Assembly (NCBI GenBank): GCA_947460455.1 | Contig: CANHKG010000024.1 | Span: forward strand, 1 to 33,510 | Direction of reading: 5' to 3' | Length of the DNA: 33,510 bases | Source of the DNA: Rhodospirillales bacterium | GTDB taxonomy: Bacteria > Pseudomonadota > Alphaproteobacteria > Acetobacterales > Acetobacteraceae | In this document: positions 4,079 to 10,120 of the stretch, piece after piece | Position numbering within the stretch: the stretch's first letter is position 1 | Layout of the letters: the number at the start of each line of letters is the position of its first letter | Notes under the pieces: generated by a model | What the model saw: the letters and a program-made list of their open reading frames with translations, nothing else | Told to the model about the DNA's origin: nothing | The model's database searches: none | Translations under genes and position numbers: made by a program

Positions 4079-4411
4079 ATGGCGACGATCGAGGAGTTCG
4101 AGGCGCTGGATATCCGGGTAGGCACCATCGTGGCCGCCGAACCGTTCCCGGAAGCACGCAAGCCCGCCATCAAGCTGCGCATCGATTTCGGCGGGGAGAT
4201 TGGCGTGAAGCGCTCCTCCGCCCAGATCACCAAATACTACACGCCGGAGGAGATCATCGGCCGCCAGGTGCTGGCCGTGGTGAACTTCCCGCCGCGCCAG
4301 ATCGGCAAGTTCATGAGCGAGGTGCTCACCCTGGGCGTGCCGGACTCGGAGGGCGCGGTGGTGATGATCCGGCCGGACCTCGCCGTGCCGAACGGGGGGA
4401 AGCTGTTCTGA
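4079..4411 (+). CDS. csaA: CsaA-type tRNA-binding protein / chaperone
   Basis: A 110-residue single-domain protein matching CsaA along its whole length: a small OB-fold tRNA-binding domain (EMAP/Trbp111 type) that forms dimers and has been described as an export-related chaperone in Bacillus. Recognisable segments are [24 protein letters not shown] near the start, [25 protein letters not shown] in the middle, and [12 protein letters not shown] near the end. The ATG at 4079 follows a purine-rich AGGGGCAGGG tract. Its TGA stop overlaps the gpt ATG by one base, so the pair is translationally coupled. Confidence 0.93.
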
Positions 4412-4890
4412 TGGCGCAGCACTACTTCACCGTCACCTGGGACCAGCTGCACCGCGATGCCCGCGCGCTGGCCTGGCGGTTGATGCCGAAGGGTCCGTTC
4501 AAGGGCGTGGTGGCCATCACCCGCGGCGGCCTGATCCCGGCGGCGATCGTGGCGCGCGAGCTGGAAATCCGGGTGATCGAAACCGTCTCCGTCGTCACCT
4601 ACGACGAGGAGCAGAAGGGCGCGCCGGTGGTGGCCAAGCTGCCCGTCGCCGCCGGGGATGGCGAAGGCTGGCTGCTGATCGACGACCTGGTGGATACCGG
4701 CACCACGGCCAAGGTGGTGCGTGCCCTGCTGCCCCTGGCCCACTTCGCCACCGTCTATGCCAAGGCCGCCGGCAAGCCGCTGGTGGATGATTTCGTGACG
4801 GAAGTGAGCCAGGACACCTGGATCCTGTTCCCCTGGGATACGGAGCCCCAGTTCTCCCCGCCCTTGGCACGGCGCGACACGAAAGGGTGA
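4411..4890 (+). CDS. gpt: Xanthine-guanine phosphoribosyltransferase
   Basis: 159 residues, closely resembling E. coli Gpt throughout ([62 protein letters not shown]). It transfers the phosphoribosyl group of PRPP to guanine, xanthine or hypoxanthine in purine salvage. The PRPP-binding motif [13 protein letters not shown] is at 88-100. The start ATG shares one base with the csaA stop. After the stop come a short GC hairpin and the AT-rich control region of the next gene. The link with csaA is operonic; no functional connection is obvious. Confidence 0.95.
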
Positions 4891-4971: not shown

Positions 4972-5106
4972 ATCGCTGTCTATCATTGTATGGCAATCAA
5001 GCGGTTGCGCGAAATAATGCGCTTTTGATGGTCGTTTTATTTTACATAAATTCCAACATACATAGGTAATCGTGCCTAGTTATTTGTTTTAATTCAACAT
5101 AATATC

Positions 5107-5121
5107 TGGCACATATTTTGC
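5107..5121 (+). promoter_or_regulatory. Sigma-54 (-24/-12) promoter of the PEP-CTERM gene
   Basis: TGGCAC, five bases, TTGC: the invariant GG and GC dinucleotides have the required spacing, and TGGCAC and TTGC both match consensus exactly. The predicted start of transcription is near 5133, which leaves a 69-base leader before the GTG at 5202. It rules out any translation start before 5133. PEP-CTERM/exosortase systems commonly encode PrsK/PrsR, whose regulator is of the sigma-54 activator type, so this control is biologically sensible. Confidence 0.75.
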
Positions 5122-5201
5122 GAAGCGCACGCCGGTTCAGCCGTGCCGTGCACGCATGCATGCGCATGAGGCCGCACCATTGTATTCCATTGGAGGCTTA
5201 C

Positions 5202-5990
5202 GTGCGAAATACAATTCTCAAGACAACAACAGCCCTTGCGGCATTGGTGGCCATCGGGCTCGCGGCACCGGGTGCTGCCAGGGCGGACACCATTCAGCTG
5301 GGCTTCATCCTCGATGAGTCCGGCAGCATCTCCTCGTCCTCGTGGACCCAGATCACCGGCGGGCTCGCCAACGCGATCAACACCCTGATCCCGATCGGTG
5401 GCCCGAACACCTATGAGATCTCGGTCGTCAAGTTCGACAACACGGCCGAAGTGGTGGTGAACCGCCAGGTGGTGTCCACGGCGGCCCAGCGTACCGCGGT
5501 GGCCAACGCGGTGTCCGCAGCAGCGCAGGGGGGCGGAGTCACCAACTACCAGGTCGCCTTCAACCTGATGCAGACAGTGCTGACCACCGGCGGCAACCTG
5601 CCCACGCTCTCCTTCGTGAACTTCGCGACGGACGGCGAGCCGAACCAGCCCAACAACGCCCAGGCGGCCGCGGTCACCGCGCGCAACGCGCTGATCGCGG
5701 CCGGCATCGACAACATCAGCATCGAGGGCATCGGCGTGAACGCCGCGGCCGCGAGCTTCCTGCAGAACTCGATCTGCTACCCGGGCCCCTGCGATATCAC
5801 GGCGCCATACAACTTCCCGGCGCAGGGCTTCTACATCGGCGTTGCCGATGCCCAGGGCTACGTCAACGCCATCGGCAACAAGATCCAGGTGGTGACCCAG
5901 CAGCAGGTGCCGGAGCCCGCCAGCATGGCGCTGCTCGGTGCCGGCCTGCTGGGCCTGGCGGCGCTGCGGCGCCGGGGTGCGAAGGCCTAG
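5202..5990 (+). CDS. PEP-CTERM sorting-signal protein with von Willebrand A (DUF1194-like) domain
   Basis: 262 residues from a GTG at 5202, set by GGAGG with a 5-nt spacer and by the sigma-54 promoter just upstream. Residues 1-28 form a Sec signal peptide ending APGAARA. Residues ~31-230 are a VWA fold with a complete metal-binding MIDAS: D38-x-S40-x-S42 in ILDESGSIS, Thr114 and Asp144 in ATDGE. The tail is a PEP-CTERM signal: VPEP at 236-239, a hydrophobic helix 240-255, then RRR. Such tails are removed by exosortase, which delivers the protein to the cell surface or matrix. No exosortase is in this window. Two cysteines (ICYPGPCDI) could form a disulfide. A role in surface or matrix adhesion is inferred. 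Confidence 0.9.
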   Translation: MRNTILKTTTALAALVAIGLAAPGAARADTIQLGFILDESGSISSSSWTQITGGLANAINTLIPIGGPNTYEISVVKFDNTAEVVVNRQVVSTAAQRTAVANAVSAAAQGGGVTNYQVAFNLMQTVLTTGGNLPTLSFVNFATDGEPNQPNNAQAAAVTARNALIAAGIDNISIEGIGVNAAAASFLQNSICYPGPCDITAPYNFPAQGFYIGVADAQGYVNAIGNKIQVVTQQQVPEPASMALLGAGLLGLAALRRRGAKA

Positions 5991-6030: not shown

Positions 6031-6065
6031 GCGCCAATGCGGCGCGCCGATCCCCGGCATGCCGC

Positions 6066-6077
6066 AATGCTTTACAC
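6066..6077 (+). promoter_or_regulatory. Second copy of the AATGC(A/T)TTACAC motif
   Basis: AATGCTTTACAC, 11 of 12 bases identical to 4960-4971, lying 63 bases before the second sigma-54-type promoter. See that entry for the interpretation. Confidence 0.4.
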
Positions 6078-6139
6078 CCTTCGCATAGTCCAACAAATAC
6101 AGACACAGTAACGCATTGAATCAACGACTGTTAAGGTTT

Positions 6140-6155
6140 TGGCATGGTGTTTGCT
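6140..6155 (+). promoter_or_regulatory. Second sigma-54-type promoter, with no protein gene downstream
   Basis: TGGCATG, four bases, TTGCT: one mismatch (T for C at the sixth position) to the sigma-54 consensus, with correct GG-to-GC spacing. The predicted start is near 6166. The next annotated gene on this strand does not begin until past 10 kb, and a strong terminator lies at 6271-6303, so the promoter would make a short transcript. Confidence 0.6.
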
Positions 6156-6165
6156 TTGTTCTATG

Positions 6166-6303
6166 CCACACGCACCGGTCTCCTGGTCCGTCGCGATGAA
6201 GATGCCGTTTGCGGCCCTTCGTCCCCTGGTCCGGTTTGGGGTGCGTGAGACGATTTGAGGCGGGAGCGGGGGCCGTCGGCGCAAGCCGGCGGCCTCTTTT
6301 TTT
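6166..6303 (+). ncRNA. Candidate sigma-54-dependent small RNA (~138 nt)
   Basis: Bounded by a sigma-54-type promoter and a strong intrinsic terminator. Near its 5' end CACGCACC (6169-6176) can pair with GGTGCGTG (6240-6247), closing a domain that contains a 13-base direct repeat with one mismatch (6178-6190 and 6221-6233, sharing CCTGGTCCG). Alternatively it could be the mRNA of a tiny peptide: ATG at 6196 to TGA at 6258 gives 20 residues, but no ribosome-binding site is visible. It matches no RNA family I can recall. Confidence 0.45.
6271..6303 (+). terminator. Strong Rho-independent terminator
   Basis: GGCCGTCGGC (6271-6280), loop GCAA, GCCGGCGGCC (6285-6294), i.e. a 10-bp stem with one G-U pair and a tetraloop, then TC and seven T residues. 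It points along the plus strand, against the convergent hydrolase gene ending at 6314, and so belongs to the transcript from 6166 or read-through from the PEP-CTERM gene. Confidence 0.85.
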
Positions 6304-6313
6304 GCGCCGCGCC

Positions 6314-7357
6314 TCAGCGCCGCGGCAGCGCGCCCATGAAGCGGCGCAGCGGCGCCTCCCACTTCGCGGCATCGGTGCCGGAGGCGAGGTGGCCGTGCTC
6401 GCTGTCGATCTCGAAGTAGTCGGCATCCACGCCGGCGGCCTTCAAATCCGCCATCACGCCCGGCGCCAGGCTGGGCGGGAACAGCGCATCGGTGCGCGAC
6501 AGCACATAGAGCAGCTTCGCCTTGATCTTGTTGAACCCAGGCGTCGCGTCCCAGCCCTGCAGCACCCGGCCCAGCACCAGCAGCGAATGCCCGTCGAACG
6601 CATCGGCCCAGGCCTCGGCGCGGGCGCGGATGGCGGCATCCAGTGCGGCCTTCTCCGGATACAGCGGCGCCAGTTCCGCCTCCGCGCCGTAGCGCCGCAG
6701 CGTCTCCTCGCGGATATCGGCCATGGTCGCGCGGATGCCGCCGGCCTCGTAGTAGTGGCCGCCATTCCAGTTCGGCGACTTCGCCATGCCCGCTTCCAGC
6801 TTGTCCGGCCCGCCATCCGCCGGGCGACGCGGCGCGGTCACCGCCGGCACCAGCCCGTCCATGAAATCGGGGAAGGTGATGCCCCAGGCGAAGGCCTGGA
6901 ACCCGCCATAGGAGGGCCCAACCACGGCGGCCAGGTGCTTCACCCCCAGCAGGTCCAGCAGCTTCTTCTGCGCCGTTACGATGTCCGTCAGCGTGATCGC
7001 CGGGAAATCCGGGCCATAGGCCCGCCCGGTCGCCGGGTTGAAGCTCATCGGCGCCGTGGAGCCATAGGCCGAGCCGATCATGTTCGACGACACCACGAAG
7101 AACCGGTCGGTATCGATGGCCTTGCCAGGCCCCACCAGGTCCGCCCAGGACCCCTCGGACGATACCGCCCCGGTGGGGTGCGCGAACATGTGGCTGCTGG
7201 TGTAGCCATGCGTCAGCAGCACCGCATTCATCCCGTTGGGGGCGAGCCGCCCGTAGGTGACGAAGGCAAGCCGCGCATTGGGCAATACCTTGCCGCTTTC
7301 CAGCGGAAGGTCGCCGATCTGGCCGAGGAGGGTGCCGGGAAGGAGGGTTTGGGTCAT
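6314..7357 (-). CDS. Alpha/beta hydrolase, homoserine O-acetyltransferase (MetX)-like
   Basis: 347 residues from the ATG at 7357, which has AGGA 8 nt upstream; a GTG 24 bases earlier is the alternative. It has the fold and landmarks of the MetX-like acyltransferase group: LTHGYTSSH, nucleophile Ser149 in GPSYGG, Asp290 in SRTDALFP and His323 in SEHGHLA. Genuine MetX proteins acetylate homoserine in methionine synthesis. This one is slightly short and lacks the usual ARxx(I/V)-type lid sequences I would expect, so the acceptor may differ and an esterase or hydrolase role is possible. It sits 42 bases downstream of the CNNM/CBS gene, on the same strand. Confidence 0.85.
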   Translation of the reverse strand: MTQTLLPGTLLGQIGDLPLESGKVLPNARLAFVTYGRLAPNGMNAVLLTHGYTSSHMFAHPTGAVSSEGSWADLVGPGKAIDTDRFFVVSSNMIGSAYGSTAPMSFNPATGRAYGPDFPAITLTDIVTAQKKLLDLLGVKHLAAVVGPSYGGFQAFAWGITFPDFMDGLVPAVTAPRRPADGGPDKLEAGMAKSPNWNGGHYYEAGGIRATMADIREETLRRYGAEAELAPLYPEKAALDAAIRARAEAWADAFDGHSLLVLGRVLQGWDATPGFNKIKAKLLYVLSRTDALFPPSLAPGVMADLKAAGVDADYFEIDSEHGHLASGTDAAKWEAPLRRFMGALPRR

Positions 7358-8779: not shown

Positions 8780-10120
8780 TCAGGCCGCCTTGAGCGAGGT
8801 CACGAAGCCGGCCACCGCGCGCTGCAGCGTGGCGGCCTGGGTGGAAAGCTCCGTGGCGGCCTGCAGCACGGTGGCCGCGGCATGCCCGGCCTCGCCCGCG
8901 CCCTGATGCACGCCCGCGATCGTGGAACCGACATCACCGGTGTGGCGCGCCGCCTCGTGCACGTTGCGCGCGATCTCGGCGGTGGCCGCGCCCTGCTCCT
9001 CCACCGCGGCGGCGATGGCGGTGGAAATGCTGCGGATTTCGCCGATCACGGCCGCGATGCCCTGGATCGCGCCCACCGTCTCCTTTGTGGCGGTCTGGAT
9101 ATGGCCGATCTGGCGGCCGATCTCCTCGGTGGCCCGTGTGGTCTGGGTGGCCAGGGCCTTCACCTCGCTGGCCACCACCGCGAAGCCCTTGCCGGCCTCC
9201 CCGGCCCGCGCCGCCTCGATGGTGGCATTCAGCGCCAGCAGGTTGGTCTGCCCGGCGATGGAGCCGATCAGCCCCACCACGTCGCCGATCCGCTGCGCGG
9301 CATCCGACAGGCGGCCCACCACGCCATCGGTGCGCTCGGCATCATCGGCCGCGCGCGCGGCCACCTGGGTGGCCTGCGTCACCTGGCGCGAGATCTCGGA
9401 GATCGAGGCCGAAAGCTCCTCCGCCGCCGCGGCCACGGTCTGCACGTTGCCGCTGGCCTGCCCGGCCTGCTCGGCGGCGGCGGCGGCGCGGCTGGAGGTA
9501 TCGCCGGCGATCGCATCCAGGTTCTCCGCCGTGGCCTGCAACTCGGTGGAGGCCCCGGCGATGCCGGTCACCAACCCGCTGGCCTCGCCGATGAACGCCT
9601 CGGAGGCCCGGGCCATCTGGTCCGTCCGCGCCTTCGCCTCGGAGGCGGCCTTGCCGTCGAGATAGACGGAGATCGCCACGTCCATGTCCATCATCACCGC
9701 CGTGGTCACCGCGGCGGCGGTCTCGGCGGTGCGGGTGGGGCTCATCCGGTGGGCCTTGGCGGCCAGGCGGATCAGCTTGTCCAGCACGTGGTTGTAGCCG
9801 GCGATGTACCAGCGCGGCTCCAGCCCGATGCGGGCATGCACGTCGCCGATGGTGCGCACGCTGGCATGGTAGTCGTCGTCGAAGGTGCCGGAGAACAGCC
9901 GCGCCCAGTGCCGCCCCTGCGCCGCCTTCAGCCCATCCACCCGCGTGCCGATCATCGTGGCCAGCGCTGGCACGCTGCGGGCATGGGCGTAGAAGGAATC
10001 GAGGATCTCGGGCAGCGCCTTTTCCACATGCGGCCAGAAGGCCCGCAGCGCCGCGCGGGTTTGCGGCGTGATGCCCATGAAGGCCACGCGTTGCTGCCAA
10101 GCGTCCAGTTTCGGATCCAT
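8780..10120 (-). CDS. Globin-coupled methyl-accepting chemotaxis protein (HemAT-like)
   Basis: 446 residues without transmembrane segments. Residues ~10-165 are a protoglobin-type sensor domain; His95 in [19 protein letters not shown] is at the position of the proximal heme ligand in HemAT and YddV proteins. Residues ~175-440 are a long helical MCP signalling domain with the conserved hairpin tip ([30 protein letters not shown], 291-320) that contacts CheA/CheW. It should be a soluble aerotaxis or gas-sensing receptor. No C-terminal CheR-tethering pentapeptide is seen. The ATG at 10120 has GGGAGG 10 nt upstream. No che genes are nearby, so it is an orphan receptor. Confidence 0.94.

Follow-up and report, generated by a model that had tools for sequence, protein, structure and literature searches.

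A predicted sigma-54 transcription unit ahead of a hydrolase gene

The stretch of DNA analysed here (the window, 33.5 kb) is part of a 5.2-Mb genome in 356 contigs (G000). On its plus strand, a xanthine phosphoribosyltransferase gene (4411-4890) is followed by the gene for a vWA-domain PEP-CTERM protein (5202-5990). A convergent gene for a MetX-like alpha/beta hydrolase lies beyond them on the minus strand (6314-7357), and it and the phosphoribosyltransferase gene served as synteny markers on either side. Between the vWA gene and the hydrolase gene the intergenic DNA holds, in this order, a PEP-CTERM box (6060-6076), a sigma-54 site (6140-6155), a segment of about 138 nt and a terminator.

The sigma-54 -24/-12 promoter TGGCATGGTGTTTGCT (6140-6155, plus strand) has no mismatch to TGGCAYRNNNNTTGCW and is kept in seven genomes of the genus. 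An earlier note on this DNA had located it correctly but counted one mismatch, which exists only against the stricter TGGCACG. Two TGGCAYNNNNNTTGC sites occur in the window, against 0.29 expected from shuffles, and the second, at 5107, is the promoter of the PEP-CTERM gene. That gene, with a box at 5030-5046 and a sigma-54 site at 5107-5122 to itself, belongs to the same regulon. A terminator scan bore out the strong intrinsic terminator of the earlier note, with a GCAA-loop hairpin at 6268-6297 and a run of seven T on to 6303 (6268-6303 as a whole, plus strand); in G008 the T run is weak (CTATTCC). Counting from the -12 element places the RNA start at about 6165/6166 and gives a predicted small RNA of about 138 nt (6165-6303, plus strand).

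The earlier note had named conservation of promoter, stem and terminator in relatives as one test of its proposal and a covariance search as one way to apply it. All three elements are present in seven congeners, an outcome that favours the note. A DNA search followed by covariance model R1 recovered the unit in 7/9 genomes of the genus (G000, G003, G004, G005, G006, G007 and G008), always in the same position ahead of the convergent hydrolase gene. In G000, G003, G004 and G008 the RNA lies 3' of the vWA PEP-CTERM gene. G005 and G007 have no PEP-CTERM gene at this place, and the immediate neighbours of the RNA are the phosphoribosyltransferase and hydrolase genes. In G006 the contig starts just ahead of the RNA. 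The adjacency to a PEP-CTERM gene reported for G000 is incidental, since two genomes carry the RNA without that gene.

In G001 (L040 690-960, G001:C205) the hydrolase junction is intact but the promoter and hairpin of the RNA are gone, and the leftover terminator directly ends the vWA PEP-CTERM gene. Because only the terminator remains at an intact junction, the RNA is absent from this genome, and it is therefore not essential. The G002 assembly is 68% complete and yielded no hydrolase orthologue, too little for a call on the presence of the RNA.

Outside the genus, the best covariance-model matches in 397 genomes of the family were gene-end terminators without a promoter. A search of 397 genomes of the order gave no homologue outside the genus at E 1e-5, and the unit had no match in a plasmid collection. 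By these searches, the predicted RNA family is restricted to one genus of the Acetobacteraceae. No Rfam family matched at its gathering score, the sub-threshold matches being terminator-like. One of these, the Bradyrhizobiaceae sRNA BjrC68 (RF02353), was rejected at 19.2 bits (E 0.012), far under the 39-bit gathering score; its weak resemblance runs across linker and terminator and lies mainly in the GC-rich terminator.

The PEP-CTERM control element

Most proteobacterial PEP-CTERM genes are preceded by a 17-nt motif ending in TTTACA, then a spacer and a sigma-54 site (Haft 2006, PMC1569441). The spacer measures 62.8 +/- 10.6 nt, and the element is co-inherited with PrsR, PrsK and PrsT (PMC1569441). 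A few sites ahead of other genes are mentioned as well, but no RNA (Haft et al., PMC1569441). A scan for this composite element identified the box TGCCGCAATGCTTTACA at 6060-6076 (plus strand) as motif 1 of Haft 2006 (PMC1569441), a predicted PrsR binding site. Its TTTACA (6071-6076) is followed by a spacer of 63 nt and the sigma-54 site at 6140-6155. The box half in G000 is GCCGC, unlike the usual GTCGG, and CTTTACACCCTT (6070-6081) in the box region is identical in six genomes.

We searched the nine genomes of the genus with the pattern TTTACAN{48,78}TGGCAYNNNNNTTGC, using the reversed pattern as control. There were 40 matches, against 0 for the reversed pattern. Each site was read individually: 33 lead to a PEP-CTERM gene (two of these are cut by contig ends but still recognisable as the vWA gene) and the remaining 7 to this RNA. 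Because it carries this cis-element, we place the predicted RNA in the PrsR/sigma-54 PEP-CTERM regulon as a putative non-coding member. Upstream, the RNA locus has the features that define the regulon: a motif 1 with TTTACA at its end, then a spacer within 32-92 nt and a sigma-54 site. PrsR itself is encoded in G000 (G000:C57), where TIGR02915 scores 625 bits against a cut-off of 502.6, and lies above the curated cut-off in 8/9 genomes of the genus, the G005 assembly being the exception. The locus departs from the regulon in its product, which is not a PEP-CTERM protein, as there is no conserved reading frame.

The earlier note had also suggested a nitrogen- or surface-regulated sRNA. With PEP-CTERM motif 1 and a sigma-54 site as its control element, the RNA is expected to be activated by PrsR rather than by a nitrogen regulator, and control by NtrC was dropped as unnecessary.

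Across the genus, distances from TTTACA to the sigma-54 site fall into discrete classes of 51, 60-64 and 73-74 nt. The steps between them are about one helical turn, which would be expected of an activator that must bind on one face of the helix. In G000 the strict element accompanies just 4 of roughly 38 PEP-CTERM matches, so most are controlled otherwise or through looser sites.

We also read about 90 PEP boxes elsewhere in the family. Those with a GTCGG or GTCAG half lead to frames for PEP-CTERM or other secreted proteins, run off the stretch, or, in one case, lead to a response regulator gene. In this last case, in another genus (L189, G245:C150:300-1300), a good PEP-CTERM box (about 9-26) and a sigma-54 site precede an OmpR-type response regulator gene, a possible regulatory cascade. 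No second orphan RNA behind a PEP box was seen among these boxes, which are a part of the family's sites.

RNA fold, linker and competing explanations

Folding gave all seven homologues (7/7) a shared plan, in which a linker joins a hairpin near the predicted 5' end to the terminator. All are more stable than their shuffles (z -2.4 to -4.3). For G000 this plan is that of the centroid structure; in the minimum-energy structure, some of the linker is base-paired. The 5' hairpin (6169-6247, plus strand) comprises helix 1 (6169-6176/6240-6247), helix 2 (6183-6190/6227-6234) and helix 3 (6195-6207/6212-6223). Helix 1 is the 8-bp long-range stem of the earlier note, and covariation analysis indicates that it is real and conserved. 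The 13-base direct repeat described there (at about 6180 and about 6226) is present too, but is better read as the two strands of helix 2, because CTGGTCCG is nearly self-complementary.

The hairpin is shorter in G005 and G007, with its position unchanged. The five long forms show 94.9% pairing over 40 pairs, and five pairs have changed on both sides, for example from C-G to U-A and from A-U to G-C. The covariation score of the hairpin is higher than that of any of the 500 shuffles or any slid control. With n=5 related sequences, these compensatory changes are support for the predicted hairpin rather than proof.

Between hairpin and terminator lies the single-stranded linker (6248-6267, plus strand), a candidate pairing or binding region. 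Its core ATTTGAGGCGGGAGC (6253-6267) is identical in six genomes and the seventh keeps ATTTCAGGCG. Among those six genomes only 39% of the four-fold sites of the neighbouring hydrolase gene are invariant, and 15/15 invariant linker positions are thus very unlikely under neutral drift (roughly 0.39^15 if sites are independent). The conservation pattern speaks for selection on linker, box and fold.

The best overall explanation, to which we give a probability of about 70%, is a non-coding sRNA of some 138 nt that belongs to the PEP-CTERM regulon, is driven by PrsR and sigma-54, and acts in trans through its linker. We looked for targets of such a linker. Near-perfect complements were few, and all lay mid-gene or in an intergenic repeat, with none recurring near a start codon. 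With leaders from the PEP-CTERM regulon the linker paired no better than shuffled linkers did, which argues against simple linker-mediated feedback on co-regulated genes. The intergenic repeat is palindromic (…AAAAAGACTT…GAAAGTTTTTTGGTTCTTTTTTT…) and occurs at the ends of unrelated genes, in G000:C55 (L245 about 1440-1600) and G003:C11 (L240 about 1440-1580). An arm of its inner hairpin, CCCGCCTCAAAT, agrees with the complement of the RNA linker, either by chance or as a real partner.

The lack of recurrent mRNA complements near start codons would also suit a linker that titrates rather than pairs with mRNAs. The purine-rich, Shine-Dalgarno-like GAGGCGGGAG might sequester an RNA-binding protein or another sRNA whose loop carries CCUCC, since the predicted folds leave the invariant linker unpaired and its sequence is like that of a ribosome-binding site. 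The idea is argued from reasoning only, and GGGAG is not kept in G005; we consider it unlikely.

The strongest rival, albeit an improbable one, is that the unit is a remnant, in which promoter and terminator have outlived a deleted gene of the PEP-CTERM regulon and the short transcript has no function. The layout of G005 and G007 is what one would expect if the reading frame of the vWA PEP-CTERM protein had been deleted, in G001 the vWA gene ends at the terminator of the unit, and the hairpin body evolves fast; yet that hairpin is maintained by compensatory changes, and four genomes have both the RNA and an intact vWA gene under a separate promoter. A functionless transcript also sits poorly with a box and linker that stay invariant in six genomes despite the low four-fold invariance. 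A derivation of the RNA body from the vWA leader was considered and rejected, homology between the two being no greater than chance.

We regard an action in cis as very unlikely. Transcription toward the hydrolase gene, or antisense to its 3' end, could regulate the hydrolase, which is the constant neighbour of the unit, and a scan found no minus-strand terminator between the convergent genes. However, with its end at 6303 the RNA stops 11 bases short of the hydrolase stop codon, and the invariant linker and covarying hairpin would be left unexplained.

A short peptide, the alternative product in the earlier note, can practically be dismissed: although the 20-codon frame (6196-6258, plus strand) exists, and a frame with the same TGA end is open in G000, G003, G004 and G008, its first ATG (6196) is ACG in G003 and G004, a frame-shift breaks its upstream part in G008, nothing but GTG starts is left in those three genomes for the 18-codon frame from 6202, G005-G007 have no such frame, G000 and G004 differ by 3 non-synonymous to 1 synonymous changes, and the changes within the frame are compensatory base-pair changes, as expected of a paired RNA. 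The homologues share no conserved reading frame, in agreement with the earlier view that the unit holds no convincing protein gene.

Proposed role and relation to known systems

We return to the regulon sRNA acting in trans. With promoter, hairpin and terminator all conserved, the description of the locus as an orphan sigma-54 transcription unit, most likely for an sRNA, holds at the level of sequence. It has the marks of the sRNA class, with its own sigma-54 promoter and terminator and a conserved, structured and apparently non-coding transcript. The locus very probably encodes a real structured sRNA switched by the control element of PEP-CTERM surface proteins. The chaperone Hfq is encoded in 9/9 genomes of the genus.

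In the mechanism we propose, PrsR phosphorylated within the PrsK/PrsR two-component system would bind the box and activate sigma-54 polymerase, as the motif implies. The RNA would then be made together with the PEP-CTERM proteins. Its linker ATTTGAGGCGGGAGC would be the active part and would work in trans, the likeliest way being to pair with mRNAs with the help of Hfq, and the RNA would add a post-transcriptional arm to the surface and exopolysaccharide programme. More tentatively, PrsK/PrsR may also deploy a dedicated RNA to reshape other functions, such as motility, exopolysaccharide or rival surface genes, whenever PEP-CTERM proteins are made; we put this at somewhat under even odds.

Small RNAs driven by sigma-54 and an enhancer-binding protein include Qrr (LuxO), GlmY (GlrR) and CrcZ (CbrB). 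Like the RNA described here, these have a dedicated sigma-54 promoter with an upstream activator box, and are short stand-alone transcripts with hairpins and a terminator. They differ from it in activator and regulon, and Rfam shows no sequence relation. The RNA is thus placed as a new, genus-restricted family among the known sRNAs driven by sigma-54 activators.

Among the closest known systems is the PEP-CTERM/PrsK-PrsR regulon itself (PMC1569441; Aquincola pepA, PMC9850573; Desulfovibrio DVUA0057, PMC3333781). The RNA locus has the same cis-element with the same spacer of about 63 nt, and PrsR is present in the genus, but the known product is a PEP-CTERM protein and here it would be a structured non-coding RNA. 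A pairing of a two-component response regulator with an sRNA of unassigned function is seen in Dv_sRNA2, a mapped target of the response regulator DVU0679, according to PMC3333781. There, regulator family, organism and binding motif all differ from those of the RNA described here. That source, in the passages considered here, links the PEP-CTERM regulator DVUA0057 to PEP-CTERM genes and mentions no sRNA among its targets (PMC3333781).

PEP-CTERM/exosortase systems have been linked to biofilms and flocs of environmental bacteria, and the literature searched describes no layer of regulation for them other than PrsK/PrsR with sigma-54. No sRNA or other non-coding member of the regulon was found in that literature, which was largely without subscription papers. 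We know of no other such member having been described. If the proposal is true, the RNA gives the exosortase/PEP-CTERM programme a post-transcriptional arm that was so far undescribed. A non-coding regulon member, with selection on its box, promoter, fold and linker, would be a direct handle on what else the PEP-CTERM system controls. Orphan PEP boxes in other PrsR genomes, otherwise passed over as unannotated intergenic matches, are thus worth scanning.

Elsewhere in the window, a minus-strand gene at 8783-10120 encodes a fusion of a protoglobin domain with a methyl-accepting chemotaxis signalling domain. Its product is likely a soluble haem-based sensor of oxygen or another gas.
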